Part shown: positions 46,513 to 62,786 of the stretch, in pieces
Position numbering within the stretch: position 1 is the stretch's first letter
Layout of the letters: each line of letters opens with the position of its first letter
NCBI GenBank assembly: GCA_017889705.1
Contig: JAGGAB010000021.1
Span: 1-64,000, forward strand
Reading direction: 5' to 3'
Length of the DNA: 64,000 bases
Origin: Bacillota bacterium
GTDB lineage: Bacteria > Bacillota > Negativicutes > Sporomusales > Sporomusaceae
Position numbers and translations under genes: made by a program
Notes under the pieces: generated by a model
What the model was told of the DNA's origin: nothing
Databases searched by the model: none
Seen by the model: the letters and a program-made list of their open reading frames with translations, nothing else

Positions 46513-47847
46513 TTAGTGTGGTATTAAAAGAATTCCTGCGATAGCAACTATATTGCCAATAATAAACAGCAGAACCGAAAATCCCATCAGGTCACGTAGA
46601 CTCATATTGGCAATGGCCAAAAGCGGCAATGCCCAGAAAGGGCATACAATGTTCCAGATACTTTCGCCCCAGGCAACACCCATAGCAACTTTCCACGGCT
46701 CTACACCCAGGGTTGCGGCAGCCGGCAGCATAAACGGCGCCTGAACCACCCAGTGTCCGCCAGCCGAAGGAACAAAGATACTGATAATCAGCGATGAGAA
46801 ATAACAAGCTACCTCGAAAGTCTGATAAGTAGAAATACCCAACAACCAATCTGAGATAACATTAACCAATCCGCTACCATGCATAATTCCCATTATGCCT
46901 GCATAAAACGGGAACTGTAAAATAATCCCGCTTGCCGTAGCAGTACCTTTTGAAATTGCTTTTGCATAATTGATTAAAGTCCCATGAGCCAGTATTCCCA
47001 ACACAATAAACATAAAAATCAAAATATTTACATTAAGATTAAAGCCGTTTTTCATGAAGTACATGCCCAGATAAACAAGCCCGGCTAAGCCTAAGGTATA
47101 ATTTAAAAACCGGCTGTTATCCATTTTATCGGCCAGGAAGGTCTCAACCAAAGTGGTCGCTGCCGCATCTACTTTTTCATCTTCCAGCTTGGAAATATCA
47201 GGAACTACTATATCTTCCTTACGTTTAGGGAGCATCAAAACACAAACAAACGGAATGATAATGGCCAACGTGCACGTAATCAAAAGCGCTTGAGGATGGA
47301 AAATAGTCTGAGTTAATGGAACCAGTCCCATTTGGCTTTCCAGGAAGTGTCCCTTGGTGTTAATTACAAGCGGAACAGAAGCTGACAAGCCTCCATGGGT
47401 AATAATAATACCGGAAAATGCCGCTGTTACAAGAACACGGAAATCGGTATCTCTGTGCTGTTTTGCGGCTTCTCTTGCCAGAAATCCTCCGGCAATCAGG
47501 CCTAAGCCCCAGTTAAGATAATACAGAGCCATTGATGAAAAACCGATGAAAAGTATTGTTTGGGTTGGAGTCTTAGGGATCAATACAATTTTTTGCAGAA
47601 ACTTTCTTACTATATTTGCAGAAGCTAATGCATAGCCGGTTATCAATACCAATGACATCTGCATAGCAAACGCTAAAATATCAAAGAAACCTTTACCCCA
47701 ATACCCGATAACGTCTACCGGGGACTTTTGGGTCACAATTACTGCCATTGCGCCTACAAACAGAGTGATAACCCATACAATTGTAAACGGATCAGGCAAA
47801 TACCTTTGCATCAAATTCACGAAGAACATGAGCACACGGTTAATCAT
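46513..47847 (-). CDS. atoE: Short-chain fatty acid transporter AtoE
   Basis: A 444-aa membrane protein with about 12 TM segments. The N-terminal LMQRYLPDPFTIVWVITLFVG (in part) and the C-terminal FVPSAGGHWVVQAPF and GVAWGESIWNIVCPFWALP (in part) are AtoE hallmarks. It moves short-chain fatty acids such as butyrate or acetoacetate. The ATG at 47847 is chosen over a GTG two codons upstream. Last gene of a three-gene operon with the CoA-transferase. Confidence 0.92.
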   Translation of the reverse strand: MINRVLMFFVNLMQRYLPDPFTIVWVITLFVGAMAVIVTQKSPVDVIGYWGKGFFDILAFAMQMSLVLITGYALASANIVRKFLQKIVLIPKTPTQTILFIGFSSMALYYLNWGLGLIAGGFLAREAAKQHRDTDFRVLVTAAFSGIIITHGGLSASVPLVINTKGHFLESQMGLVPLTQTIFHPQALLITCTLAIIIPFVCVLMLPKRKEDIVVPDISKLEDEKVDAAATTLVETFLADKMDNSRFLNYTLGLAGLVYLGMYFMKNGFNLNVNILIFMFIVLGILAHGTLINYAKAISKGTATASGIILQFPFYAGIMGIMHGSGLVNVISDWLLGISTYQTFEVACYFSSLIISIFVPSAGGHWVVQAPFMLPAAATLGVEPWKVAMGVAWGESIWNIVCPFWALPLLAIANMSLRDLMGFSVLLFIIGNIVAIAGILLIPH

Positions 47848-47899
47848 TCTCACACATCCATTCTTTCTTTTATATTTATACTCACATTTGCATAATTAC

Positions 47900-48547
47900 T
47901 TAAACTGTCATTTTCTTCACGTCAGGAGAAACTGCATAATCGGCCTCAGTAGCTTCTCTGATCATCTGCTCAGTAACATTAGGAGCCAGTTCGGTCAGCA
48001 CTAATCCTTGTTTTGTTACCTCGAATACACATAAATCCGTAATAATTAAATCCACTTCATGAGAAGCCGTCAAAGGCAAATTGCATTTTTTCATGATTTT
48101 GGGCACTCCGCCTTTGCCAACATGCTCCATAGCGACAATAACTCGTTTAGCTCCTACAACAAGATCCATTGCACCGCCCATGCCCGGGACAATTTTACCC
48201 GGCACCATCCAGTTGGCTAAGTTTCCTTCCTGATCCACTTCCAAAGCGCCTAGAACCGTAGCATCCAAATGGCCGCCACGTACGATGGTAAACGACATAG
48301 CACTATCAAACATTGAACCGCCAGGCAAAACACCGGCTGCTTGTCCACCGGCATTGGCTAGATCAGGATCTGGATTCTCTTCTACCGGGCCAAGACCGAT
48401 AAATCCATTCTCTGAATGCAATATAACTCTTTTGTCACTAGGTATATGATTCGCGACAAGTGTAGGTATACCTATTCCTAAGTTAACTACATCTCCGTCT
48501 TTAAGTTCTTGCGCAACTCTTTTCGCAATAAGAGTTCTGCTTTCCAT
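47900..48547 (-). CDS. atoA: Acetate/acetoacetate CoA-transferase, beta subunit
   Basis: A 215-aa family I CoA-transferase subunit carrying the catalytic glutamate in HSENGFIGLGP. Other motifs: VNLGIGIPTLVANHI and LGALEVDQEGNLANWMVPG. With AtoD it swaps CoA between acetyl- or butyryl-CoA and acetoacetate or butyrate. GAGGGGG precedes the ATG by 6 bp. It is 15 bp after atoD. Confidence 0.93.
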   Translation of the reverse strand: MESRTLIAKRVAQELKDGDVVNLGIGIPTLVANHIPSDKRVILHSENGFIGLGPVEENPDPDLANAGGQAAGVLPGGSMFDSAMSFTIVRGGHLDATVLGALEVDQEGNLANWMVPGKIVPGMGGAMDLVVGAKRVIVAMEHVGKGGVPKIMKKCNLPLTASHEVDLIITDLCVFEVTKQGLVLTELAPNVTEQMIREATEADYAVSPDVKKMTV

Positions 48548-48562
48548 CACAATCCCCCTCGT

Positions 48563-49210
48563 TTAGGCTTGAATAAGAGCATCTACAAAAATTCCAGGCA
48601 CCATAACTTCATCCGGATCTATTTCACCGGTAGGCACGATATTTTCCACTTCAGCAATTACATAATCAGCAGCTGTTGCCATTTGTGGATTGAAGTTTCT
48701 TGTTGACCTTCTAAATATCAGATTACCCTCCAGATCTGCTTTGTGTGCCTTAATTAATGCAATATCGGCTCTAAGGGGTTTTTCTAACAGAAAGGTACGC
48801 CCGTCTACATCCACGGTAGTTTTTCCCTCAGCAACAACGGTTCCTACACCGGTAGGAGTAAGCACTCCACCGAGTCCGGCTCCGCCGGATCGAATCCGTT
48901 CAATTAGCGTTCCTTGCGGTGATAATTCGACTTCCAGCTCGTTAGCGTTCATCTGACGACCAGTTTCGGAATTAGTTCCAACATGAGATACAATTACTTT
49001 TTTTGCTTGTCGATTAACAATTAATTTGCCAATACCACGATCTGGATAGCCTGTATCGTTTGCGATTACCGTGAGGTTTTTATACCCTCTATCTACTATT
49101 GCGTCAACTAAACGGGTTGGTGTTCCATTTACCAAAAATCCGCCAATCATGAGTACTGCCGAATCTTTGATCTTGTCTGCCGCTTGCTCTAAACTAATTA
49201 CCTTTGACAT
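48563..49210 (-). CDS. atoD: Acetate/acetoacetate CoA-transferase, alpha subunit
   Basis: A 215-aa family I CoA-transferase alpha subunit: the glycine-rich LMIGGFLVNGTPTRLVDAIV, SHVGTN, ELSPQGTLIERIRSGGAGLGG (split) and ADIALIKAHKADLEGNL. First gene of atoDAE, behind a near-perfect sigma-54 promoter. GGGGGAAAT precedes the ATG. Confidence 0.93.
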   Translation of the reverse strand: MSKVISLEQAADKIKDSAVLMIGGFLVNGTPTRLVDAIVDRGYKNLTVIANDTGYPDRGIGKLIVNRQAKKVIVSHVGTNSETGRQMNANELEVELSPQGTLIERIRSGGAGLGGVLTPTGVGTVVAEGKTTVDVDGRTFLLEKPLRADIALIKAHKADLEGNLIFRRSTRNFNPQMATAADYVIAEVENIVPTGEIDPDEVMVPGIFVDALIQA

Positions 49211-49263
49211 TATTTCCCCCTCAGCTTCAGGATTTAGCCTTCAACACCCACGCTAATTTAATT

Positions 49264-49280
49264 TGCAAGAACTGTGCCAA
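49264..49280 (-). promoter_or_regulatory. Sigma-54 promoter of atoDAE
   Basis: On the minus strand TTGGCAC-AGTTC-TTGCA: consensus -24 (TGGCAC) and -12 (TTGCA) with the exact GG-N10-GC spacing. It is about 55 bp before atoD. Confidence 0.88.
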
Positions 49281-49331
49281 TACAAAAATCAAAGTCAGTT
49301 ATTAAAAGACTCTGTCAATTCAACCGTCCAT

Positions 49332-49347
49332 GATGAAATTTTTCATC
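49332..49347. promoter_or_regulatory. Activator site upstream of the atoDAE promoter
   Basis: Palindrome GATGAAATTTTTCATC. It starts 53 bp upstream of the -24 TGG, the same distance as the matching site before the butyryl-CoA dehydrogenase operon. Probable binding site for the adjacent sigma-54 activator. Confidence 0.65.
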
Positions 49348-49390
49348 GTATAATTTATAGAATTATCTGTAAAATATAGATTTTTCCGTT

Positions 49391-49448
49391 AGTTTTAAAA
49401 GATGAAAAAACGCATCAGCTATGATGCGTTTTTTCATCTTTTAAAACT
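49391..49448 (-). terminator. 27-bp perfect hairpin at the activator gene end
   Basis: A perfect 27-bp inverted repeat with a 4-nt loop. The 3' half encodes the last codons of the activator and the stop lies at the loop. T runs within the stem make it a likely terminator for both strands. It also contains two GATG-N8-CATC words (49401 and 49424). Confidence 0.8.
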
Positions 49449-50974
49449 ATTCCTAATTTTTTAGCCTTTTTCACTATGGTAGACTGGTCGACCATCAGTA
49501 CTTTGGCTACTTTTCGCGTACTTCCATATAGCGTCATTGCCTCTTCAATTGTCCGTTTCTCAATATTATTTACGATTTCTTTTAAGCCCATTTCCTTTAT
49601 TGCCGACTTCGTGGTGTAAGCTGGAACAACGTTTAGCAGCGCACCTAATTGCTCATTATTTACTACACCGCTTTGTTCTGAAATAATTACAAGTCTCTCA
49701 ATAATATTCTGTAATTCACGAATGTTTCCCGGCCAGAGATATTGCTGCATCATACCAAAGCCAATTTCATCGATAATTGTGTTCTTGACGTATTTTGCAT
49801 TATAAATTTCAAGAAAGTGGCAGGCCAACGGCTCAATATCCTTAACACGCGCCCTTAGTGGCGGTATATGGATAGGAAACACATTCAGCCGGTAGTACAA
49901 ATCTTCACGGAAACGGCCTTGTTTTACCAAATCCTTTAAGCCGCAATTTGTCGCTGACAGAATTCTTACATCAAGCCTAATCGGTTTAGTTCCTCCGATA
50001 CGAGTTACTTCCTTATGCTGTATCACTCTTAGCAGCTTGGATTGTAATTCCATGGGCATATCGCCGATTTCATCGAGCAAAATAGTTCCTTTATCCGCTA
50101 ATTCAAATAGCCCCGTTTTACCGGTACTGGTAGCACCGGTGAACGCGCCTTTAGCATAACCAAAAAGCTCTGCTTCTAATAAGTTAGCAGGAATAGCCGC
50201 ACAGTTTACTTTGATATAAGGGCCGTCTTTCCTGGCACTATTCACATAGATTTCATTAGCTACAACTTCCTTACCGGAACCAGTTTCTCCGGTTATCAGT
50301 ACAGTAACGTCAAGTCCTGCCACCTGTTGAATTTGCTTCATAACCTGCTGGGTTTCCGCGCTGGTTCCAATCATACTGTTATTCAACTGCAATTTACGAA
50401 GATGCTCAGCCTCTAACGCGCTTTTCACTTTGTCTTTTTCCACGGCTTTCATCTTGCGTTGCGAAACATCCAATTCACTTTTAATTTTCAGCAAATCGGT
50501 AATTTCTCTATCAATAACAACAACTTTCTTTACATTACCTTTTGCATCCAAAACGGGGCTGCCTGTGATTAGCATTTTGGTTCCGTTTCGCAGGCTTTCT
50601 CCCATGGCATTTACTTGCTTTTTGCTTTTAATTACTTCTGGAGTTACCGCATTCAGATATACTCCAGCGGCCACCAGCTCGTCAACGTACTTTCCAACCA
50701 CTTCTTCCGGCTTAATACCGGTAATTCTGGTATAGGCCTTATTAACATACAAGGTTTTACCCTCGCCGTCAGTAATATAAATTCCGTCATACAAATGATC
50801 GCCGATCTCACGAAAATCAGCCAGTTCACCTAAGATTTTTTGCAAACTGTCTGTAAACTCCCCTCGCAAGGAGCTATCCCATGTCCCTTTCTCGATTTTT
50901 TTTATTATGTCCCGCAATGCAATTTCACTGCTTACCATTGTACTTATCAATGCTCTCACGCCTCTATTCGCCAA
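49415..50974 (-). CDS. Sigma-54-dependent PAS activator
   Basis: An enhancer-binding protein of about 519 aa. A PAS domain (about 55-165; [20 protein letters not shown]) is followed by a coiled linker and an AAA+ domain with Walker A GETGSGKE, the sigma-54 contact loop GAFTGA, Walker [10 protein letters not shown] and an R-finger region. The C-terminal HTH ([20 protein letters not shown]) is of the TyrR/Fis type. The start is uncertain (TTG at 50974 or 50950, or ATG at 50938). It lies between two sigma-54 promoters and probably controls all three butyrate operons; the PAS domain may bind a pathway acid. Confidence 0.93.
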
Positions 50975-51012
50975 ATTACTCTACCCAAATAATAGCCAAT
51001 AGCCATTCAAAT

Positions 51013-51035
51013 GTAAATAATCAAAATTTATTCAC
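51013..51035. promoter_or_regulatory. Imperfect inverted repeat upstream of the thiolase promoter
   Basis: GTAAATAA-N6-TTTATTCAC, 18 bp upstream of the -24 element. It does not match GATG-N8-CATC. It resembles a TyrR-type box only loosely. Confidence 0.25.
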
Positions 51036-51051
51036 TTCTTTGGTTTTGACT

Positions 51052-51068
51052 TTGGCATGAAAATTGCA
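51052..51068 (+). promoter_or_regulatory. Sigma-54 promoter of the thiolase-Kce operon
   Basis: TTGGCAT-GAAAA-TTGCA with exact GG-N10-GC spacing, about 50 bp upstream of the thiolase TTG start and 80 bp from the divergent activator gene. Confidence 0.85.
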
Positions 51069-51116
51069 ATAAGGTTAAGCGAGCCTTACAACAACCCCAC
51101 AAGGAGGATAAACACA

Positions 51117-52298
51117 TTGAAAGAAGTCGTTATCGCCGCTGCACTCCGCACCGCTATCGGTAGTTTCAACGGCACACTTGCACCCTTATCTGCCACCGAA
51201 CTCGGCAGTATCATTATCCGTTCTGCATTAGAAAAAGCTAATTTGTCACCATGTGATGTTGATGAAGTCATCATGGGCAATGTTCTCCAGGCAGGCCTAG
51301 GACAAAATCCCGCTCGCCAATCAGCGGTAAAATCCGGACTGCCAGTCGAAGTTCCCGCCTATACGATTAACAAAGTTTGCGGCTCAGGCTTAAAAGCTGT
51401 TAACTTAGCCACACAGTCCATCCTGGCCAACGATGCCGACATTGTCATCGCCGGCGGAATGGAGAGCATGACTAACGCTCCTTATGTTTTGGAAAACAAA
51501 GCCCGTTGGGGATACCGCATGGGAAACAGCAAGGTAGTTGATGTCATGATCCAAGACGGCCTATGGTGCGCTTTTAACGATTACCATATGGGTATCACCG
51601 CAGAAAATGTTGCCGCTAAATATGGTATTACCCGCGAAGCTCAAGATGAATTGGCTGCGCAGTCGCAAGCTAAAGCCATCGCCGCAATAGATAACGGCAC
51701 CTTTAAAAATGAAATTGTTCCTGTAACCATTAAAGGCAAAAAGGGCGACATCGTCTTTGATACCGATGAATTCCCGAAACGCGGCACGTCGCTAGAATCG
51801 CTGACTAAATTACGGACAGCCTTTAAAAAAGACGGTACCGTAACCGCCGGTAATGCTTCCGGCATTAATGACGGTGCTGCCGCACTTGTTGTTATGTCCG
51901 GTGAAAAAGCCAAAGCTCTAGGAATCAAGCCATTAGCGCGAATCATCGGCTATGGTTCAGGCGGCGTTGATCCTTCCATTATGGGAATGGGTCCGGTGCC
52001 TGCGGCACAAAAAGCTCTCGCCAAAGCAGGTCTGACAGTAGCTGATATTGATTTATTTGAGGCCAACGAAGCCTTTGCTGCTCAATTCCTGGCTGTTGGC
52101 AAAGAGTTAGGACTTCCCCAAGAAAAAATCAATGTTAACGGCGGCGCTACCGCTCTTGGACATCCGATTGGCGCCAGCGGTGCCCGCATCCTGGTAACAC
52201 TTCTCCACGCAATGCAACAGCGTCAAGCCAAGCGTGGCCTGGCTACCCTATGCATTGGCGGCGGCCAGGGCATAGCAACAATTGTTGAGTTAATTTAA
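51117..52298 (+). CDS. Acetyl-CoA acetyltransferase (thiolase)
   Basis: A 393-aa biosynthetic-type thiolase that interconverts two acetyl-CoA and acetoacetyl-CoA. Active cysteine lies in [12 protein letters not shown], the His in [15 protein letters not shown] and the second Cys in CIGGGQG. I place the start at the TTG at 51117 (TTG AAA GAA), 9 bp behind AAGGAGG; an upstream ATG overlaps the sigma-54 promoter and would precede transcription start. First gene of a three-gene plus-strand operon. Confidence 0.94.
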
Positions 52299-52323
52299 TT
52301 TATTTTATGAGGTGAATGCAATT

Positions 52324-53145
52324 ATGGAAAAAACAATTATTACCGTCGCAACAACAGGCGCATGGCCTACCAAGGAACATAACCCCAACATCCCCTTAAC
52401 ACCTGCTGAAATTGCGAACGATGTGTATGAGTGCTGGAAAGCCGGCGCAGCAGTTGCCCATCTTCATATGCGCGATGATGAAGGTAAAGGCACTATGTCC
52501 AAAGAAAAATTTGCTGAAACCGTTAAACTTATCAGAAGCAAATGCAACATTGTACTTAACCTGACAACCTCCGGTGACCTTAACGCTACCGACGAAACCA
52601 GAATGGCACATCTTATTGAATTAAAGCCTGAATTAGCCTCTTATGACTGTGGTTCCATGAACTGGATGCATAACAGCCTGTTCCTGAATCCGCCCCAATT
52701 TCTCGAGAAACTTGGCAAGACCATGATGGAAAACGGAGTAAAACCAGAAATCGAAATTTTTGATGCTGGTATGATTTACAATTCCCTTTACTACATGAAA
52801 AAAGGCGTTATCGCCGCCCCTGCTCATTATCAGTTTGTATTAGGCGCTGCCGGCGGTACAGCTGCAACCATCGAAAACTTAGTATATCTTAAAAGTTTAA
52901 TTCCGCAAGGCTCCACCTGGTCAGCGCTAGGCATTGGGCACGGTCATGTACCCATTATGTTGGCAGCTATCGCCCTTGGCGGTCATGTTCGTGTAGGTAT
53001 GGAAGACAACGTATATTATGCTAAAAACCAATTGGCTGAATCCAATGCACAATTTGTCGCCCGCGCTGCAAGAGTAATTAAAGAAGCCAACAGCACAGTC
53101 GCAACCCCTGATGAAGCAAGAGAAATTCTGGGCGTAAAAAAATAA
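52324..53145 (+). CDS. Beta-keto acid cleavage enzyme (Kce/BKACE family)
   Basis: A 273-aa zinc enzyme that condenses a beta-keto acid with acetyl-CoA, releasing acetoacetate and a new acyl-CoA. Zinc ligands are H46 and H48 (AVAHLHMRD) and E227 (RVGMEDN), in the positions known for Kce; NLTTSGDL and FDAGMIYN are also conserved. The founding member cleaves 3-keto-5-aminohexanoate in lysine fermentation, but other members act on dehydrocarnitine and other keto acids. No other lysine-pathway genes are seen here, so the substrate is open. ATG at 52324 behind GAGGTG. Confidence 0.92.
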   Translation: MEKTIITVATTGAWPTKEHNPNIPLTPAEIANDVYECWKAGAAVAHLHMRDDEGKGTMSKEKFAETVKLIRSKCNIVLNLTTSGDLNATDETRMAHLIELKPELASYDCGSMNWMHNSLFLNPPQFLEKLGKTMMENGVKPEIEIFDAGMIYNSLYYMKKGVIAAPAHYQFVLGAAGGTAATIENLVYLKSLIPQGSTWSALGIGHGHVPIMLAAIALGGHVRVGMEDNVYYAKNQLAESNAQFVARAARVIKEANSTVATPDEAREILGVKK

Positions 53146-53164
53146 TAATAGGAGATAAGCAACC

Positions 53165-54115
53165 ATGATTAAAAAAATTGGTGTAATCGGCGCAGGTACC
53201 ATGGGGCATGGCATCGCTTTATCCTTTGCTATGTACGGCTTTGATGTAAATATGTATGATGCCTACGAAAATCAATTAACTAAAGCACTGGCTGATATGG
53301 CTGATGAATTGGCTCTCTTAGTGGAAGAAAAGTTCATTGAACCGCAAACTGTTAAACCCATCCTCAGTCGCATCAAAGTATTTAGCGACCTTAAACAAAC
53401 AGTTGAAGATCGTGATTATGTTATTGAAGCAGCTCCCGAAAAAATCGAACTCAAGCAAAACCTCTTTAAACAGCTTGATGAATATTGTCCGAAACATACC
53501 GTTTTTGCCAGCAACACTTCCAGTCTCGCACTTGACGCAATGATGGCCTTGCTTCCCGAAGAACGCAAACAGCGCATGATTGTCAACCACTGGTACAATC
53601 CTGCCCACCTGATGCCAATTGTTGAGCTTTCTTGTTTTGGCAATATGCCGCTTGAAATCTACAATGAAGTTGAGCAAATGTATGCTTCCATCAAAAAGCA
53701 AACAGTAAAAGTTCTCAAAGACGTTCCCGGCCTTGTTGCCAATCGTATTCAGCAAGGTGTAGCCAGAGAAGTTTTCTCTCTGATTGAACAAGGCGTTGCT
53801 GAACCTGCCGATATCGATAAGGCATTGAAATTCGGTCCCGCCTTCCGCTATGCCACAACAGGCCAATTGGAAGTAGCCGATTTCGGTGGACTTGATATCT
53901 GGTGCATTGTAGGCGACAACCTGCTGAAAGAAATGGATAATCGCCTTGGCGCCAATGATCTTTTGAAACAAAAAGTTGCCGAAGGCAAACTTGGTATTAA
54001 AACAGGCGAAGGCTTCTACAAATATAACGAAGCTGAAATTCCAACTATCAAAAAAGAATTTGCAAAAAAATTAATCCATCAATTAAAAGCTTCTGAGTAT
54101 TATACAGATAAATAA
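53165..54115 (+). CDS. Atypical 3-hydroxyacyl dehydrogenase
   Basis: A 316-aa NAD-dependent dehydrogenase of the 3-hydroxyacyl-CoA dehydrogenase fold. Rossmann motif GVIGAGTMGHGIA; catalytic region SNTSSLALDA and VNHWYNPAHLMPIVEL. The HWYNPAHLMP version differs from the HFFNP motif of the true 3-hydroxybutyryl-CoA dehydrogenase at 55358 and resembles relatives acting on free hydroxy acids, such as carnitine or gulonate dehydrogenases. Encoded 19 bp after the Kce gene, so it most likely makes that enzyme's beta-keto acid substrate. Confidence 0.85.
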   Translation: MIKKIGVIGAGTMGHGIALSFAMYGFDVNMYDAYENQLTKALADMADELALLVEEKFIEPQTVKPILSRIKVFSDLKQTVEDRDYVIEAAPEKIELKQNLFKQLDEYCPKHTVFASNTSSLALDAMMALLPEERKQRMIVNHWYNPAHLMPIVELSCFGNMPLEIYNEVEQMYASIKKQTVKVLKDVPGLVANRIQQGVAREVFSLIEQGVAEPADIDKALKFGPAFRYATTGQLEVADFGGLDIWCIVGDNLLKEMDNRLGANDLLKQKVAEGKLGIKTGEGFYKYNEAEIPTIKKEFAKKLIHQLKASEYYTDK

Positions 54116-54125
54116 TTATTAAAGC

Positions 54126-54167
54126 ACACAGGTATCGGCCGCAAAGCTGAATACCTGTGTTTTTTTA
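54126..54167 (+). terminator. Terminator of the thiolase-Kce operon
   Basis: Perfect stem ACACAGGTAT / ATACCTGTGT followed by TTTTTTTA. Confidence 0.92.
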
Positions 54168-54199
54168 CACCCTTTTACGCTAGAGTGAAGTAATTCAAC

Positions 54200-54260
54200 T
54201 TTAAAAGCGCAGTTGGTTATCAGCAATACTATATTGCCGGCAACCAGCCGCGCTTTAAAA
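54200..54260 (-). terminator. Terminator of the small Cys-protein gene
   Basis: Arms TTTAAAAGCGC / GCGCTTTAAAA with an inner TGGTT/AACCA pairing. It lies 15 bp past the small gene's stop. Confidence 0.75.
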
Positions 54261-54274
54261 AGAGTGAAATTTCT

Positions 54275-54430
54275 TCATTTTTCTTTATTCAATATGGCTA
54301 CAGCTTGTTTTAGCAACTGAACATCACCACAAATCGGAAACTCACCACAACTATCTCCTGCCAGGCATTTAGCACAAAGCGACTCAGCTAGTTGCTCAAG
54401 ACCGCTAGCCACTTCAGAACTTTGTAGCAT
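54275..54430 (-). CDS. Small four-cysteine protein
   Basis: A 51-aa protein (begins MLQSSEVASGLEQLAESLC) with cysteines at 19, 22, 28 and 34 (CAKC, SCGEF, ICGD): a CxxC-x5-C-x5-C array that could hold an iron-sulfur cluster or zinc. AGGAGG lies 7 bp before the ATG. It has its own terminator. No family recognised. It follows the crotonase gene of the butyrate operon in the same direction and could be its last gene. Confidence 0.65.
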   Translation of the reverse strand: MLQSSEVASGLEQLAESLCAKCLAGDSCGEFPICGDVQLLKQAVAILNKEK

Positions 54431-54560
54431 ACTTACCACCTCCTGTGGTCAGTATACTACCAGTCTAACCCCAAGCACAAATACCATAATTTTGCAATAT
54501 CCTCTTTCTATGCTTGTAATTGGTGAAATATGCAAAATAAGTATATCCTTATGCCAGTTA

Positions 54561-55346
54561 CTATTTACCCGTAAAAGCAGGTTTACGTTTTTCAACAAAC
54601 GCCGTCATACCCTCTTTTTGATCAGCAGTCGCAAAACATATGCCAAATGCTTCGGCTTCATAAGCTATACCTGAATCAAGATCCATATCAAGCCCTTCAT
54701 TTACGGCAGCTTTACACAGTTTAACAGCATATTCCGCTTTAGCCATAATGTTTTCTGCCATAGCCTGGGCTACACTCAGCAGTTCCTCAGGTGCAGTTAC
54801 ATTGTTAACCAACCCCAGACGATATGCTTCCTGCGCATTAATGATGTCCGCAGTAAACAGCAGCTCTTTGGCTCTCCCTTTGCCAATTAAGCGAGGCAGA
54901 CGTTGGGTGCCGCCAAAACCTGGTATAATGCCTAACCCAACCTCGGGTTGTCCAAATTTAGCCTTTACAGAAGCTATCCGGATATCACAAGCCATTGCCA
55001 ATTCACAGCCACCACCTAAGGCAAAGCCATTAATAGCCGCAATCACTGGCTGTGGAAGATTCTCCAGTTTATTAAATACTTGCTGTCCAAATTTAGCAAA
55101 ACTCCGGCCTTCAATGGCAGATTTGCTTTGCATTTCGCTGATATCAGCTCCGGCAACAAAAGCTTTTTCCCCGCTACCTGTCAATATGACTACTTTTACG
55201 CTTTCATCGGCAGCAATAACATCAATTAGGCTATTCAGCTCGGAAAGCAATTCTGAATTTAACGCATTCAAAGCTTTGGGGCGATTAAGTGTAATACGGG
55301 CAATACCCTGATAATTACTATACAAGAGATTGGAATACTCAGCCAT
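54561..55346 (-). CDS. crt: Enoyl-CoA hydratase (crotonase)
   Basis: A 261-aa crotonase that dehydrates 3-hydroxybutyryl-CoA to crotonyl-CoA. Oxyanion-hole motifs are AFVAGADI and NGFALGGGCELA. The two catalytic glutamates lie in GQPEVGLGIIPGFGGTQ and GRAKELLF. The ATG at 55346 follows GAGGTG by 6 bp. Near the end of the five-gene butyryl-CoA operon. Confidence 0.94.
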   Translation of the reverse strand: MAEYSNLLYSNYQGIARITLNRPKALNALNSELLSELNSLIDVIAADESVKVVILTGSGEKAFVAGADISEMQSKSAIEGRSFAKFGQQVFNKLENLPQPVIAAINGFALGGGCELAMACDIRIASVKAKFGQPEVGLGIIPGFGGTQRLPRLIGKGRAKELLFTADIINAQEAYRLGLVNNVTAPEELLSVAQAMAENIMAKAEYAVKLCKAAVNEGLDMDLDSGIAYEAEAFGICFATADQKEGMTAFVEKRKPAFTGK

Positions 55347-55357
55347 CTCACTCACCT

Positions 55358-56215
55358 CTACTTTGTATAATCATAAAAACCCTTGCCGGTTTTACGGCCA
55401 AGATACCCTGCTTGTACCATTTTCTTAAGCAACGGGCACGGCCGATACTTAGGATCGCCATAACCGTTATAGAGCACTTCCATAATTGAAAGAATTGTAT
55501 CATTGCCAATAAGATCAGACAGAGCTAACGGGCCCATAGGATGATTAAATCCTAGCTTAGCAACCTGATCAATGTCTTCCGCACTTGCTACCCCTTCCAT
55601 TAGTGTATAGATAGCTTCATTTATCATCGGCACCATAATACGGTTGCCGACAAACCCGGGGAAATCTTCCACTTTGACAGATGATTTACCCAACTTCTCG
55701 GCCAAAGTTTTTACCGCGGCAAAGGTTTCTTCGCTTGTTGCCAAGCCATTAATAATTTCAATAAGTTTCATAATGGTCGCCGGATTAAAAAAGTGCATGC
55801 CAATAACTTTGTCAGCCCGTTTAGTATAAGCGGCAATAGCCGTTATCGGCAACGACGAGGTATTGGTTGCCAAGATAGTATGCTCAGGACAAAGCTTGTC
55901 CAATGTTTGAAATATTTCCCTCTTAATATCCGCATTTTCAATAGCAGCTTCCACCACCAGATCTACTTGACAAACCTCGGCATTCAGGTCTTCCGTAGTT
56001 GAAATACGTCCTAAAACAGCATCCTTTTCTTGTGGTAATAATTTGCCCTTTTCCACCAGTTTATTCAGGTTCTTATCAATTCCGGCAATTCCTTTTTGAA
56101 CGAATTCTTCCTTAATATCCCGCAAGATAACAGTAAGACCAGTTTGCGCCATTACCTGCGCAATACCGCTTCCCATTTGTCCGGCACCGATAATTAGCAC
56201 TTTATTTATTTCCAT
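55358..56215 (-). CDS. hbd: 3-hydroxybutyryl-CoA dehydrogenase
   Basis: A 285-aa dehydrogenase reducing acetoacetyl-CoA to 3-hydroxybutyryl-CoA. NAD-binding [12 protein letters not shown], catalytic His/Glu pair in [17 protein letters not shown], Ser in NTSSLPIT and Asn in GFVGNRI. Typical length. The consensus HFFNP contrasts with the Kce-linked dehydrogenase. Lies between etfA and crt. Confidence 0.95.
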
Positions 56216-56244
56216 GGTATATTGCCTCCTATAGAAAAATCAAA

Positions 56245-57441
56245 TTAACAGGCTTTTGCTTTTTTAAATTCTTCGATAAGCGCAGGCAGTACTTCCGCCA
56301 CGTCACCGATTATTCCGTAATCAGCTACTTTAAATATAGGTGCATCAGCATCTTTGTTAATAGCAATAATGATATCTGAGGATGACATACCTGCTACATG
56401 CTGAATTGCGCCTGATATACCACAGGCAAAATATACCTTCGGACCAACTGTTTTACCGGTTTGCCCAACCTGATGATAGTGCGGCTTCCAACCGGCATCA
56501 ACAACTGCCCGCGAAGCTCCGACAACGCCACCCAGTACATCAGCTAACTCTTCAATCAGTCTGAAGTTCTCAGGTTTCCCCATGCCTCTGCCGCCGGAAA
56601 CAATGATTTCGGCTTCTTCCAGATTACAGGAAGTAGTACAAACTTTAACTAACTCAAGCAGCCTTGTGCGAATACCCTGACCTTTCACCTTACTGGCAAC
56701 CCGAATAATCTCGCCACTCTTAGAGAAATCTTGCTCGGGGCGCTTAAATACCTTTGGTCGTACTGTTCCCATTTGCGGGCGATGTTCCGGACAGAGAATG
56801 GTGGCCATAATATTGCCGCCAAAAGCCGGCCGCGTCCAGGCTACCAGGCCGGTCTGCTCATCAATCCCCAAGTTAGTGCAATCTGCGGTCAGCCCTGTAC
56901 CTACCCGGCACGCAACCCTTGGCCCCAGATCACGTCCGTCATTAGTTGCTCCAATCAATATAACCGAAGGTTTATAGGTATTAATTAAACCAGCAAATAC
57001 CGTCGTATAACCATCAGTACTATAGTTTTTCAGCTCACTTGCTTCCACTAAATAGACTTTATCTGCACCACTTGCAAACACTTCTTTGGATAGTGCTTCA
57101 ACTTCGTCGCCAATAATTACGCCTGCTAATTGCTCGCCCATAGCATCTGCCAGTTTACGGCCTTCGCCCAAGAGTTCATGACTGACATTTTTTACTTGTC
57201 CATCTATCTGCTCAATGAATACCCATACATCTTTATATTCAGCTTTATCTATTTTAACCGCAGCTTGTTCACTTTCTTTAGTTATCGCATTTACAGGGCA
57301 TGTGTCAACACAAGCCCCGCATACTGTACACGCATCAGTAATACAAGCTTTGTCGGCCTCCATAACCATTGCGCCAAAAGGACACGCGCTAATGCATGCA
57401 CTGCAACCAATACATTCTTCTTTATTAACTATTACCGCCAT
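56245..57441 (-). CDS. etfA: Electron-transfer flavoprotein alpha with N-terminal ferredoxin
   Basis: A 398-aa EtfA. The N-terminal 60 residues are a two-cluster [4Fe-4S] ferredoxin domain (C10, C13, C16, C20 and C38, C41, C44, C48). The rest is EtfA proper, with the FAD-binding ending SGRG-type region (IIVSGGRGMGKPENF), GASRAVVDAGW, and YFACGISGAIQHVAGM. Ferredoxin-fused EtfA occurs in bifurcating systems such as caffeyl-CoA reductase. This supports ferredoxin reduction coupled to crotonyl-CoA reduction. Confidence 0.94.
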   Translation of the reverse strand: MAVIVNKEECIGCSACISACPFGAMVMEADKACITDACTVCGACVDTCPVNAITKESEQAAVKIDKAEYKDVWVFIEQIDGQVKNVSHELLGEGRKLADAMGEQLAGVIIGDEVEALSKEVFASGADKVYLVEASELKNYSTDGYTTVFAGLINTYKPSVILIGATNDGRDLGPRVACRVGTGLTADCTNLGIDEQTGLVAWTRPAFGGNIMATILCPEHRPQMGTVRPKVFKRPEQDFSKSGEIIRVASKVKGQGIRTRLLELVKVCTTSCNLEEAEIIVSGGRGMGKPENFRLIEELADVLGGVVGASRAVVDAGWKPHYHQVGQTGKTVGPKVYFACGISGAIQHVAGMSSSDIIIAINKDADAPIFKVADYGIIGDVAEVLPALIEEFKKAKAC

Positions 57442-57456
57442 GTTTTATTGCCTCCG

Positions 57457-58242
57457 TTACACAATCTTTGCCGTTAGTAATTTACCAGCGAGTATTGCTG
57501 CTGCTTCACGCGCCGTATCAGACTTAATAATCTCACCTTGCACTCTTTGCGGTGGAGTAAAAATACGCCGCACCTGTGTCGGTGAACCTTTAAGCCCAAG
57601 CTGTCCTGGATCTACCTCCATATCATCAGCGGTCCAGGTAGGAATTTCTTTTTTATTGGCTTTCATTGTTCCCTTGATGGTCGGAAAACGCGGCTCATTA
57701 ATGGACTTTATAACAGTAAGAAGTACCGGAATTTGTGTCTCAACAACTTCATAGCCTTCTTCATGTTCACGCTCTACTTTGACCTGGTTGCCTTCAACCT
57801 CAATCTTAGATACGCAGGTAACTTGCGCCATATCTAAATGTTCCGCCATTTCGGGTCCTACCTGAGCAGTATCACCATCAATAGCTTGTTTACCACAAAT
57901 GATCATATCTACTTTACCCAGTTTTTTAATCGCACAAGCCAGCGTATAGCTGGTAGCCAACGTGTCTGCACCGCCAAAAGCACGGTCACTGACAAGTATG
58001 GCCTCGTCAGCTCCTATAGCTACACATTCCTTTAAAGCATCTTTGGCTTGCGACGGCCCCATAGTAACAACCGTTACTTTGCCACCGTGCTTTTCTTTCA
58101 GTTGAAGCGCTGCTTCGAGCGCATGTTTGTCAAAAGGATTTACAATGCTAGGTACGCCCTGTCTAATAAGCGTGTTAGTAACCGAATCGATCTTTACTTC
58201 CGTAGTATCAGGGACTTGTTTGACACAAACAACAATTTCCAC
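57457..58242 (-). CDS. etfB: Electron-transfer flavoprotein beta
   Basis: A 261-aa EtfB. N-terminal CVKQVPDTTEVKID, NPFDKHALEAAL, the VTMGPSQAKDALKEC loop and GKQAIDGDTAQVGPEMAEHL (in part) are family signatures and include the flavin/nucleotide site. Pairs with EtfA (15 bp downstream) and Bcd (20 bp upstream). Confidence 0.95.
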   Translation of the reverse strand: MEIVVCVKQVPDTTEVKIDSVTNTLIRQGVPSIVNPFDKHALEAALQLKEKHGGKVTVVTMGPSQAKDALKECVAIGADEAILVSDRAFGGADTLATSYTLACAIKKLGKVDMIICGKQAIDGDTAQVGPEMAEHLDMAQVTCVSKIEVEGNQVKVEREHEEGYEVVETQIPVLLTVIKSINEPRFPTIKGTMKANKKEIPTWTADDMEVDPGQLGLKGSPTQVRRIFTPPQRVQGEIIKSDTAREAAAILAGKLLTAKIV

Positions 58243-58262
58243 GTTGAGACCTCCTAAATCGC

Positions 58263-59402
58263 CTATCGTAATATGCTTCCTGAAATGACCATGCGCTGCA
58301 CCTGATTTGTCCCCTCATAAATCTGGGTAATCTTAGCGTCCCGCATCAACCGTTCTACCGGATATTCACGACTATAACCATATCCGCCGAAAATCTGCAC
58401 AGCATCAGAAGTAACCTCCATGGCAATATCAGAAGCAAACATTTTTGCCATAGCAGCTTCCTTGGCATAAGGCAGTCCTAGATCTTTTAAACAAGCTGCA
58501 CGATAAACCAATAAGCGTGCTGCATCGATTTTAGTTGCCATATCAGCAAGCATAAAGGCAATCGCCTGATTAGCAGCAATCGGCTTGCCAAACTGCACCC
58601 TTTCCTTGGAGTACTTAACCGCATAATCCAAGGCCGCCTGCGCTATGCCCAAAGCCTGTGCCGCAACACCGATACGGCCTCCGTCAAGTGTCGCCATGGC
58701 AATTTTAAAGCCTTCGCCTTCTTTACCAAGCAAATTTCCTTTGGGAACCTTGACATCCTGAAAAATAAGCTCATTGGTTATCGAAGAGTGAATACCCATC
58801 TTATGTTCTTTTTTACCAAAGCTAAAACCAGGCATTCCCTTTTCCACAATAAAGGCCGAGATTCCCTTTACGCCTTTGCTTCTGTCAGTCATCGCAAAAA
58901 CTACATATATCTCAGCTTCACCGGCATTAGTAATAAAAATTTTGCTGCCATTAAGCAAATAATGGTCATCTTTAAACTCAGCTATAGTTTGCTGGCCAGC
59001 GGCATCAGTCCCCGCATTTGGTTCAGTCAATCCAAAGGCTCCCAGCTTAGCCCCTTCTGCCAGCGGTACAAGATACTTTTGCTTTTGTTCTTCTGTGCCA
59101 AAGGAATATATCGGCCAACCGCACAAAGACACAGTAGCCGATAAAGTAATACCTACACCGGAATCAGCGCGTGACAACTCCTCAACCGCTAAGATATAGC
59201 TAAGAACATCAGCCTCTGCTCCACCGTATTTTTCTGGAAAACAAATTCCCGCAAAACCCATTTCTCCCATAGCATCCGCTATTTCCCGCGAGAATTCCTC
59301 TTTCTCATCCCGTTCTGCAGCACCTGGGGCGACTTCCTTTTCGGCAAAATCGCGTACTAATTTTTGCATTATTTTTTGTTCATCGGTAAGGTTAATCTGC
59401 AT
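58263..59402 (-). CDS. bcd: Butyryl-CoA dehydrogenase
   Basis: A 379-aa short-chain acyl-CoA dehydrogenase reducing crotonyl-CoA to butyryl-CoA. FAD motifs [13 protein letters not shown] and the [14 protein letters not shown] strand; catalytic glutamate in [11 protein letters not shown]. The ATG at 59402 follows AAAGGAG by 9 bp. First gene of bcd-etfB-etfA-hbd-crt, behind a consensus sigma-54 promoter. Confidence 0.94.
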
Positions 59403-59452
59403 GCTTGTCATCTCCTTTTTTTTGTTTTAGATACCTTGTTTTAGTAATATTC

Positions 59453-59467
59453 GCAAAAATCGTGCCA
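59453..59467 (-). promoter_or_regulatory. Sigma-54 promoter of the bcd operon
   Basis: On the minus strand TGGCACGATTTTTGC: perfect -24 and -12 elements with GG-N10-GC spacing, about 50 bp before bcd. Confidence 0.9.
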
Positions 59468-59500
59468 AAAAGAAAACTTGCCATTTCCTTGTTAAATAAA

Positions 59501-59515
59501 TCACATTTTATGTGA
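59501..59515. promoter_or_regulatory. Palindrome near the bcd promoter
   Basis: TCACATTTTATGTGA, a 6-bp inverted repeat around TTT, 34 bp upstream of the -24 element. It could be a separate regulator's operator. Confidence 0.35.
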
Positions 59516-59519
59516 AAAT

Positions 59520-59535
59520 GATGATTATGTTCATC
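59520..59535. promoter_or_regulatory. Activator site 1 upstream of bcd
   Basis: GATGATTATGTTCATC, starting 53 bp upstream of the -24 TGG. Matches GATG-N8-CATC. Confidence 0.65.
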
Positions 59536-59576
59536 GGTTTATATAAAAAATACCCATAAATCGGACTTTGATAAGT

Positions 59577-59592
59577 GATGACAAAAATCATA
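59577..59592. promoter_or_regulatory. Activator site 2 upstream of bcd (imperfect)
   Basis: GATGACAAAAATCATA; matches the GATG half and CAT of the other half. Lies 110 bp upstream of the -24 element. Confidence 0.4.
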
Positions 59593-59598
59593 CTCTAT

Positions 59599-59614
59599 GA
59601 TGCAAATATTCATC
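59599..59614. promoter_or_regulatory. Activator site 3 upstream of bcd
   Basis: GATGCAAATATTCATC, a full GATG-N8-CATC match, 132 bp upstream of the -24 element. Confidence 0.6.
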
Positions 59615-60789: not shown

Positions 60790-62786
60790 TCACTCCACAG
60801 CTCTTACATTCACTTTGACATCATAAAATGTACTCCCCTGGGCCTTATCAGTAAGCCGCTGGGAAGTCAGCGCATTAACTGAACGATTGCCGGGAGCATG
60901 TTCAAGCCACCACAGGCCTTCGGCTACAACCACGCCACCGGGGACTTTGTCGGAAACTTTTGCGGTAAAGGTTACCTCGCCACGCTCGTTGTAGGCAAGT
61001 ACAAGCTGGCCATCCGCTATCTCTATTTTTGCTGCATCATGCGGATTAATCTGTAACAGCATTTTGTTGGTCTTGGTTAACTCTTCCCTTTCATTAAAGG
61101 AAGAGTTTAATAACCGGGCATCAGGCGAATTAACAAGCCAAAAAGCGGCAGCATCGCCCTGTGGTTTAGTATACATGGGCAATGGGCTGTCTTCAGCCGG
61201 ATTAAAAATCTCGATCTTGCCTGACGGGGTTTTAAAATTGGTCTTGTAGCCCTCAGGCAGCGGCAATTCCACCGGCCGCCCTTCAGACAAAGCTTGCAGC
61301 GACGTGCCGGCAAGCCAGGCTGACGGCTGCGTCAATATACTATCAATCAACTCATCGGCCGACTGTTTGAAGAAAGGTTTATCTATTCCCATGGCTGCTG
61401 CCAGCAGGCAGAATACTTCCCAGTTGGCTTTAGCCTGGCCTAACGGCGGAATTACCGAATACGCCCGCTGTACCCCATAATGCCCGTAGGAACGATAGAT
61501 ATCACTGTGTTCCAGCGAGGTTGTTGCCGGTAGAATGATATCTGCATACTTTGCCGTATCAGTCATAAACCGCTCGTGCACTACCGTGAAGAGATCCTCT
61601 CGCGCCAAGCCTTGTAGCACCTTATTCTGGTCAGGCGCTACCGCTGCCGGATTGGAGGTATACACATACAGACTCATGATTGGCGGATCTTGCAGTTCAG
61701 CGCATTACCCAGTTGGTTCATATTAACAAGGCGGGTGGCAGTCTCCCGGAAATCTTCACGGGTTATCTTACTTGTATTTAGTGCGCCGCCTGTGGTTGTG
61801 CCGGCCAACAGTCCGCCGCCAGATTTGCTCCATGCCCCAACCAATGCCGGCAGACAAGTAATCGTCCGAACTGTCATGGCTCCATTGCTGTAGCGTGACA
61901 GACCGCTTCCCAATCTAATAAACGGTGCTTTGGCTTTGGCATACTGCCTGGCCATATCTTCAATTACCCCGGCAGGCAGGCCGGTTATTTCACTTACTGC
62001 TGCCGGCGAATACTCCGGCAGCACAGTATTCTTCAGTTCTTCATAGCCTTGCACATAGGTATTAACAAAGTCCGCATCAATAAGATTTTCCCTTGCGATT
62101 ACATGCATCATGCCCAATGCCAGAGCACCATCTGTACCCGGACGGACAACAATAACCTGATCGGCAATTTGCGCGGTTGGCGTCTCATAAGTGTCAATCA
62201 GCCAAACCTTTGCGCCTTTCTGTTTAGCTATATTTATATCATGCAGGATATGAATATTGGTTGCCAAAGCATGAATGCCCCATAAAACAATCAGATCACT
62301 GCTATGAATTTCGTTGGTATGAGGCGCCATTGTCTGTCCCATTACGGCCTCCCAGCCATAACTTTTAGCCGGCGAACAAATCGTACGATCAAGTTGGGAT
62401 GCACCCAAGCTATAAAAGAAAGGGTGACCGACATTGCGCTGCACAAGCCCCATTGTTCCGGCATAGGAGTAAGGCAATATGGCCTCAGCACCGTACTTGG
62501 CAATAATATTTTCCCATTTGGTTTTTATGCGTTCAATAGCTTCTTCCCACGAAACGGGCGTAAACTCACCGCTTCCTTTGCAACCGTTTCTTAGTAAAGG
62601 CGTCATAATTCGTCGCGGCGAATGCACACTTCTTTCATAATGGGCCATCTTCGGACAAAGAGTCCCTCTGGTAAAAGGATGTTCCGGGTCACCCTCGACT
62701 TTGGCAGCTTTGCCGTTATCTATATGAACAAGTAGGCCACACGCGTCAGGACAATCATACGGACAAACCGAGCGCAGAACTTGCAT
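60790..62786 (-). pseudogene. Molybdopterin oxidoreductase, frameshifted
   Basis: Two overlapping frames together make one Mo/W-bisMGD oxidoreductase of about 665 aa. The 5' part (61674-62786) has the N-terminal [4Fe-4S] motif CPYDCPDAC ... LCPKMAHYER, a likely Mo-ligand Cys in DRTICSPAK, and the MGD-binding regions. The 3' part (60790-61677) continues with SLYVYTSNPAAV, ADIILPATTSLEHSD and the C-terminal molydopterin-binding barrel (QINPHDAAKIEIADGQLV). The break lies near 61685-61692: adding one base in AAGATC restores K-D-P-P-I-M-S-L-Y, the normal family sequence. It is a recent mutation or a sequencing error. Substrate unknown. Confidence 0.88.

Follow-up and report, generated by a model that had tools for sequence, protein, structure and literature searches.

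A conserved three-site GATG-N8-CATC array as the likely operator of a PAS-type sigma-54 activator in the Negativicutes

Three operons grouped around a single gene for a sigma-54-dependent activator raise the question of which DNA word that activator reads and which promoters it serves from it. The genes lie in a window of 64,000 nucleotides (positions 1 to 64,000 of contig JAGGAB010000021.1, assembly GCA_017889705.1) from a bacterium of the Sporomusaceae (Negativicutes), to which all coordinates refer unless another locus is named. The activator, a bacterial enhancer binding protein encoded on the minus strand at 49415..50974, comprises a PAS domain, an AAA+ domain with the GAFTGA motif (PF00158, 236 bits) and a C-terminal helix-turn-helix (HTH) of the HTH_50 family. 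A preliminary description of this DNA had proposed that a 16-bp palindrome, GATG-N8-CATC, placed at a fixed distance from -24/-12 promoters, is the operator of this protein. Comparison of related genomes supports this proposal as likely, the palindrome being conserved in nine families, tracking the presence and absence of the activator, and mostly keeping its distance from the -24 element. The unit, however, consists of three operators per promoter in place of one with extra copies, and it includes the words that had been read as part of a hairpin.

Arrays in the window and across orthologues

The three predicted -24/-12 promoters are present where they had been described. The promoter of atoD-atoA-atoE lies on the minus strand at 49264..49279 (TGGCACAGTTCTTGC, T of TGG at 49279), that of thl-kce-hdh2 on the plus strand at 51053..51068 (TGGCATGAAAATTGC, with no GATG-N8-CATC upstream), and that of bcd-etfB-etfA-hbd-crt on the minus strand at 59453..59467 (TGGCACGATTTTTGC, T of TGG at 59467). 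All five perfect palindromes and the imperfect copy of the preliminary description were found as placed, and the spacing of 53 between the near edge of the palindrome and the T of TGG is exact at both the ato and the bcd promoter. At the ato promoter, operator 1 (49332..49347) is followed 69 bp further up by operator 2 (49401..49416), which overlaps the end of the activator stop codon, and after another 22 bp by operator 3 (49423..49438), which lies inside the last codons of the activator (D-E-K-T-H). At the bcd promoter, operator 1 (59520..59535) is followed after 57 bp by operator 2 (59577..59592; GATGACAAAAATCATA, one mismatch) and after 22 bp by operator 3 (59599..59614). The window thus holds five GATG-N8-CATC words (49332, 49401, 49423, 59520 and 59599) against 0.73 expected, a count reached by none of 100 shuffles. 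The genome as a whole contains 84 copies in 5.005 Mb, or about one per 60 kb, so that the chance estimate of once per 65 kb given earlier was correct; the palindrome occurs 40-70 bp before TGGC-N8-TGC at only two places genome-wide, both in this window.

Orthologues of the activator were defined by an E value below 1e-200, matches of 40-46% identity being counted as paralogues. By this definition, and counting the genome under study, 15 of 60 genomes carry an orthologue, as do 18 of 300 from the class, the latter distributed over nine families; one genome, G021, carries two, giving 19 orthologue genes (65-100% identity) whose surroundings were compared. The HTH of all 19 shares the sequence (V/I)DQST(I/V)VKK. 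The preliminary description had suggested looking for the motif near the -24/-12 promoters of orthologous loci, and in 19 of 19 a perfect palindrome stands at or past the point where the activator gene ends, upstream of the sigma-54 promoter that follows. It lies 53 from the T of TGG in ten loci, 52 in four and 54 in two, and 62, 97 and 389 in one each; position-locking is therefore strong (52-54 in 16 of 19) with three exceptions, in one of which (L111, distance 389) additional DNA separates the site from the promoter. A perfect site at 51-54 would arise in first-order resampled upstream DNA with a probability of 0.0001.

The other two sites are as regular as the first. A position weight matrix (PWM) scan of 260 bp upstream identified the array at the 16 activator-linked promoters with the exception of L111, and a wider scan recovered the arrays of L111 and of three loci added later. 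Among these 19 arrays, the second site lies 65-69 bp past the proximal one (82 in L120) and the third 22 bp past the second in every case; the second is perfect in 18 and the third in 15, the others having one mismatch. Every one of the 19 arrays thus has three sites per promoter, the number known from NorR-type enhancers, and in five of the arrays a single site carries one mismatch. Directly behind the array comes kce in nine loci, atoD in four, atoE in three and thl in two; in L120 the contig ends 134 bp past the promoter. Arrays are also found at other promoters, as the bcd operon carries one in five genomes of the genus, with distances of 51-53, then 55-57, then 21-22, the middle site being degenerate in four of the five, and the divergent kce promoters of L120 and L121 carry one with distances of 54, 67 and 22. 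Altogether, 31 promoters with arrays were tabulated, eight divergent sigma-54-like promoters without sites (window 51053, L110-L114, L119 and L211) being excluded. Across nine representative loci of the 19, identity is 81-83% in the sites and 32-43% in the spacers, a contrast partly built in, as the pattern fixes half of each site.

Two further arrays were noted. In G006 (L173, 11780-11940), a LysR-family gene is preceded by a second complete array and an ato-like promoter at a distance of 41; together with the gap of 389 at the ato promoter of the same genome, this looks like a duplication combined with an insertion. G005 has a three-site array with spacings of 59 and 20 bp, placed 119 from a sigma-54-like promoter (L171, 14010-14223), before a gene that appears porin-like by eye and has no Pfam match at 1e-10.

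The exact distal pair follows the activator. It was found in 13 of 15 genomes with an orthologue and in none of 45 without (Fisher p 2e-11); in the class-wide set of 300, the corresponding figures are 14 of 18 and one of 282 (Fisher p 1e-19). These p-values treat kindred genomes as independent. The two 300-genome sets used for the latter comparison were assumed to be identical, 262 genomes without an orthologue match being unlisted. The four genomes with an orthologue and no exact pair (G015, G048, G060 and G085) have the pair with one mismatch, and a reversed control pattern occurred in no genome of either run. Among more distant relatives (best-segment identity of at most 51%), the exact distal pair was present in none of 79 loci kept from at least 596 stretches, there being 64 single GATG-N8-CATC words in 1.47 Mb.

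Several observations weigh against this reading, besides the kinship of the genomes and the partly built-in contrast between sites and spacers. The 52-54 rule is broken in three of 19 loci (62, 97 and 389), and the distal sites are not separated from the proximal one by an integral number of turns of the helix. A single palindrome 40-70 bp before TGGC-N8-TGC is present in all 15 genomes with an orthologue and also in 21 of 45 without. Six of the 31 arrays (four extra ones, L174 and L214) were found by means of the motif itself and do not test it, and only two (L120 and L121) of ten divergent sigma-54-like promoters beside orthologues carry an array. G137, the single genome with the exact pair among the 282 in which no orthologue was found, has a complete array. 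This array (L214, 2550-9836) stands before an hdh2 orthologue, beside thl-atoE-atoD-atoA, on a contig that ends soon after; a histidine kinase and a sigma-54 response regulator are encoded in its neighbourhood.

Alternative readings of the sites

The thiolase promoter is where an alternative survives best. It had been described as lacking the motif, with the suggestion that control there must differ or use a weaker site. The absence is borne out: a promoter resembling TTGGCAYGAAAATTGC is kept before thl or kce in six comparable loci, and none of the six has sites. As the lack of sites is itself conserved, a weaker site is unlikely. A weak site was also rejected on PWM scans, no score above 2 being obtained in the 260 bp upstream of the 51053 promoter and none above 8 in 49001-54200 besides the three ato sites. 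In two other genomes (L211 and L213), thl stands directly behind a three-site array, as kce does in nine of 19 loci, for which reason both look like members of the regulon. The simplest reading, plausible by analogy, is that the ato array also serves the thiolase promoter, which lies 1.6 kb off on the far side of the activator gene. In Bacillus thuringiensis, one SoxR enhancer site has been reported to serve two promoters of the same locus, one of them (soxC) at least 1.7 kb away (PMC4941409); the two cases are alike in the shared enhancer, the use of the ato array by the distant promoter being a supposition here. Control of the 51053 promoter by a different activator, in place of the distant ato enhancer, is a serious alternative, though not the favoured one: the missing nearby site in all six comparable loci and the many other activators in the genome speak for it, whereas the position of thl and kce behind arrays elsewhere and the SoxR precedent speak against it.

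The ato distal pair is also part of an extended hairpin (49390..49449), with a 28-bp stem (z = -10.9) made of the distal operators and their flanks, which could act as an additional terminator or insulator. If the copies at 49401 and 49423 were a mere terminator of the activator gene, the operator would be the proximal palindrome alone. The strength of the stem in the window and its extension by three or more pairs beyond the operators in nine of 19 loci would fit such a view, but in the other ten the stem extends by at most one pair and the palindromes still lie 22 bp apart, the pair also occurs away from the 3' end of the activator, before divergent kce (L120 and L121) and before bcd (L111), and it tracks the presence of the activator. 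This alternative is thus highly improbable. The hairpin described earlier at 49391-49448 does contain two GATG-N8-CATC words; these are distal operators in 19 of 19 loci, whereas the extended hairpin is confined to nine. A role as terminator or insulator is therefore probable in some clades only, as the stem extension is absent from ten loci in which the operators and the 22-bp spacing are kept, and in such clades the distal pair likely has a double role as operator and hairpin. In 17 of 19 loci, the outer operator encodes the final residues of the activator (D-E-K-T-H and variants). The stop codon of the activator falls inside the operator in L117 and ahead of it in L123; the palindrome is intact in both, which indicates that selection acts on the DNA.

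That the palindrome is read by some other DNA-binding protein, such as another of the 30-odd activators, and that the gene at 49415 is a mere neighbour, is hardly credible. In its favour, the genome has 31 PF00158 matches above 200 bits and G137 carries an array without a detected orthologue. Against it, all 19 loci, the two of G021 among them, have the array at the 3' end of this very activator; related GATGC arrays occupy the corresponding position in two paralogues with similar recognition helices (NQSTIVRK against DQSTIVKK); GATG-N8-CATC is missing from 11 of 14 paralogue loci; and the exact pair is missing from congeneric genomes that have no orthologue (G001, G002, G004 and G007).

The paralogues bear on the specificity of the operator. 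Besides the 11 loci just mentioned, one of the 14 (L098) has a single poor match. L103 and L106, with the helix VNQSTIVRK, carry GATGC palindromes with spacings of 21 and 68-69 bp over the 3' end of the activator gene, and L095, with IDRSTCFRK, has TGTGC-like sites with spacings of 20 and 59 bp; these arrays lie at or just after the 3' ends of their own activator genes (L103, 2869-2905; L106, 1414-1518; L095). A generic scan for three palindromes at 48 activator loci, 14 of them without a parsed open reading frame (ORF), returned clear arrays at the orthologues and at L103 and L106, and a likely one at L095, while L199, L201 and L203 scored slightly above three simple shuffles. The co-variation of helices and arrays, a correlation only, fits recognition of the palindrome by this HTH.

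Proposed mechanism and related systems

It is very probable, taking the model as a whole, that dimers of the activator on three-site arrays drive the ato, bcd and probably the thl operon. The PAS-AAA+-HTH protein would bind GATG-N8-CATC palindromes as dimers, each target having a proximal site about 53 upstream of the -24 TGG and, beyond it, two tandem sites 21-22 bp from one another; the distance from the proximal site to this pair is about 65-69 bp in arrays of the ato/kce type and 55-57 bp in those of the bcd type. Three bound dimers would then assemble the active AAA+ ring, which would loop onto sigma-54 RNA polymerase and open the promoter. The arrays would control the operon for the CoA-transferase and the transporter as well as the butyryl-CoA operon, with the thiolase-BKACE-dehydrogenase operon (BKACE, beta-keto acid cleavage enzyme) probably driven by the ato array from 1.6 kb, and the signal perceived by the PAS domain is probably a short 3-hydroxy or 3-oxo acid or its precursor. 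At the ato promoter, the distal pair extends into the end of the activator's coding sequence, so that part of the enhancer would be encoded in the C-terminal codons of the protein that reads it. The number of dimers and the assembly of the ring are modelled on NorR, a point that counts against the proposal. A sigma-54 factor is available, rpoN being present as a single copy (PF04552, 207.5 bits).

In Escherichia coli, three enhancer sites upstream of norVW are essential and provide the scaffold for a ring-shaped higher-order oligomer of NorR (PMC2941729). Like NorR, the present protein is a sigma-54 activator whose proposed enhancer has three sites. Unlike NorR, which senses nitric oxide through a GAF domain, it has a PAS domain, and its distal sites overlap the 3' end of its own gene. 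In the Clostridiales, the sigma-54 activators AhcR, CrbR, XanR, XcgR and YctR have been linked to butyrate and butanol formation, with crt-hbd-thl-bcd-etf, atoE-hbd and similar operons as predicted targets; the sites of AhcR, CrbR and XcgR are described as TGT-N10-12-ACA and those of XanR and YctR as distinct motifs, and there are often several sites upstream, most of them 100-250 bp from the promoter (PMC6615313). Judged by the description of these motifs in the accessible text, GATG-N8-CATC and its conserved three-site geometry differ from the TGT-N10-12-ACA type, whereas one of the distinct motifs of XanR and YctR could prove to be the same. An operator of the CrbR/AhcR/PrdR type was rejected, TGT-N10-12-ACA occurring four times above the 31 array promoters against 5.6 expected from resampling; in the window, the motif is absent from the 300 bp above 49279 and above 51053 and occurs once above 59467. 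The activator was likewise rejected as an equivalog of NorR (331 bits against a cut-off of 476 for NF003451) and of PrdR (409.5 against 795 for NF041552), and, among the 25 best NCBIfam models listed, the top models all score under their own cut-offs. A literature search on enhancer binding proteins in Negativicutes turned up nothing related, and the accessible part of PMC12316311 contains nothing on the present regulon. Sigma-54 control of butyrate genes is already published for Clostridiales, the present, well-conserved system having a likely operator of its own and a strict three-site geometry.

These results provide a concrete operator, a geometry and a target list for an activator below all listed NCBIfam cut-offs. 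The fixed layout offers a route to ask whether, outside NorR too, an active ring forms only when three dimers are seeded on DNA, and the thiolase promoter, whose lack of sites is conserved, is a natural test case for one enhancer with two promoters. The regulon as a whole connects the sigma-54 switch with a pathway for 3-hydroxy/3-oxo acids and, in two of the relatives, with phloroglucinol-degradation-like genes. A more far-reaching proposal is tentative and, in our estimate, rather doubtful: that one stretch of DNA serves as the last residues of the activator, as a terminator in some clades, and as two thirds of a three-dimer enhancer for both the ato operon and the thiolase/BKACE operon 1.6 kb off, in a regulon for triacetate- or phloroglucinol-type acids, the 21-22 and 65-69 bp layout, embedded in the activator's own 3' end, recurring in a wider group of PAS activators, of which the two paralogues would be examples.

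Target operons and the pathway they suggest

The ato operon, on the minus strand, encodes an AtoD-like CoA-transferase subunit A (48563..49210), an AtoA-like subunit B (47900..48550) and an AtoE-like short-chain fatty acid transporter (46513..47853; PF02667, 428 bits). The thiolase operon, on the plus strand, encodes a thiolase (51117..52298, with a TTG start after aaggagg), a BKACE (kce, 52312..53145) and a 3-hydroxyacyl-CoA-dehydrogenase-like protein (hdh2, 53165..54115). The bcd-etfB-etfA-hbd-crt operon (54561..59411, minus strand) would lead from crotonyl-CoA to butyryl-CoA, bcd, hbd and crt having been identified by scan and the etf genes named by sequence reading. The BKACE was rejected as a KCE equivalog (326.7 bits) and has Trp18 at the position of KCE Glu14; the hdh2 product has Phe and Ala in place of HBD Lys56 and Asn221, these positions all being assigned by counting along alignments, and was rejected as a carnitine dehydrogenase (106.5 of 414 bits for NF005471 and 115.9 of 592 for NF005716). 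It probably acts on a free 3-hydroxy acid.

A phloroglucinol cluster of Clostridium scatologenes, comprising PGR, DPGC, TfD and TAL, feeds the butyrate pathway (PMC10470551). Its triacetate acetoacetate-lyase has Trp at the KCE Glu14 position, and in its triacetate-forming dehydrogenase HBD Lys56 and Asn221 are lost (PMC10470551). Both signatures of this lower pathway, Trp at Glu14 and the loss of Lys56 and Asn221, are found in the window, which resembles the C. scatologenes cluster in its Trp-BKACE, its 3HCDH-like protein without these residues, its CoA transferase and its thiolase. In G005 and G006, the ato operon runs on into genes for an SDR protein and a PF04199 cyclase, the families to which phloroglucinol reductase and dihydrophloroglucinol cyclohydrolase belong; they stand behind atoDA in the activator-linked operon (L110, 5515-7265; L111, 5093-6903), where the window has the short-chain fatty acid transporter instead. 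For the G006 copies, no NCBIfam equivalog confirmed either the SDR or the cyclase. G006 further has a partly degenerate array before a pyrogallol hydroxytransferase (PDB 4v4c, 1292.5 bits). The cluster around it (L172, 3081-17820) also encodes a UbiD-family-like decarboxylase below cut-offs and a PF00474 symporter, and two sigma-54 promoters in it have GATG-N8-CATC at 51-53, with middle sites degenerate or missing.

The active-site residues and the operons of these two relatives together suggest a pathway of 3-hydroxy/3-oxo-acid degradation, of the triacetate type, feeding butyrate. The organism would take up a 3-hydroxy or 3-oxo acid and cleave it with acetyl-CoA, the resulting acetoacetyl-CoA passing to thiolysis or to butyrate. 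A joint induction of butyrate formation and beta-keto acid cleavage, as proposed earlier, may occur. The butyryl-CoA (bcd) operon is a second predicted target in five genomes of the genus, and butyrate formation as such is probably too narrow a description. Extension to triacetate and phloroglucinol in general is weakened by the distribution of relatives of the G006 cyclase (threshold 1e-50), which are found in only four of 60 genomes; G021 has one on a contig other than those of its two activators, and G024 has one and no activator orthologue. The genome under study has no such relative at 1e-50, and two other PF04199 genes on contig C134. A Sporomusa sphaeroides strain without the butyrate pathway has been described (PMC12456013).

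Two features concern the activator gene and its surroundings. The start of the gene is uncertain, orthologue alignments beginning at query residues 4 to 52, and a -35/-10-like pair seen by eye on the opposite strand of the thiolase promoter stretch may be the activator's own promoter. Further along the window, at 60790-62786, a molybdopterin oxidoreductase is represented by two abutting ORFs of 295 and 370 aa, which match the C- and N-terminal parts of PF00384 and may be a split gene.

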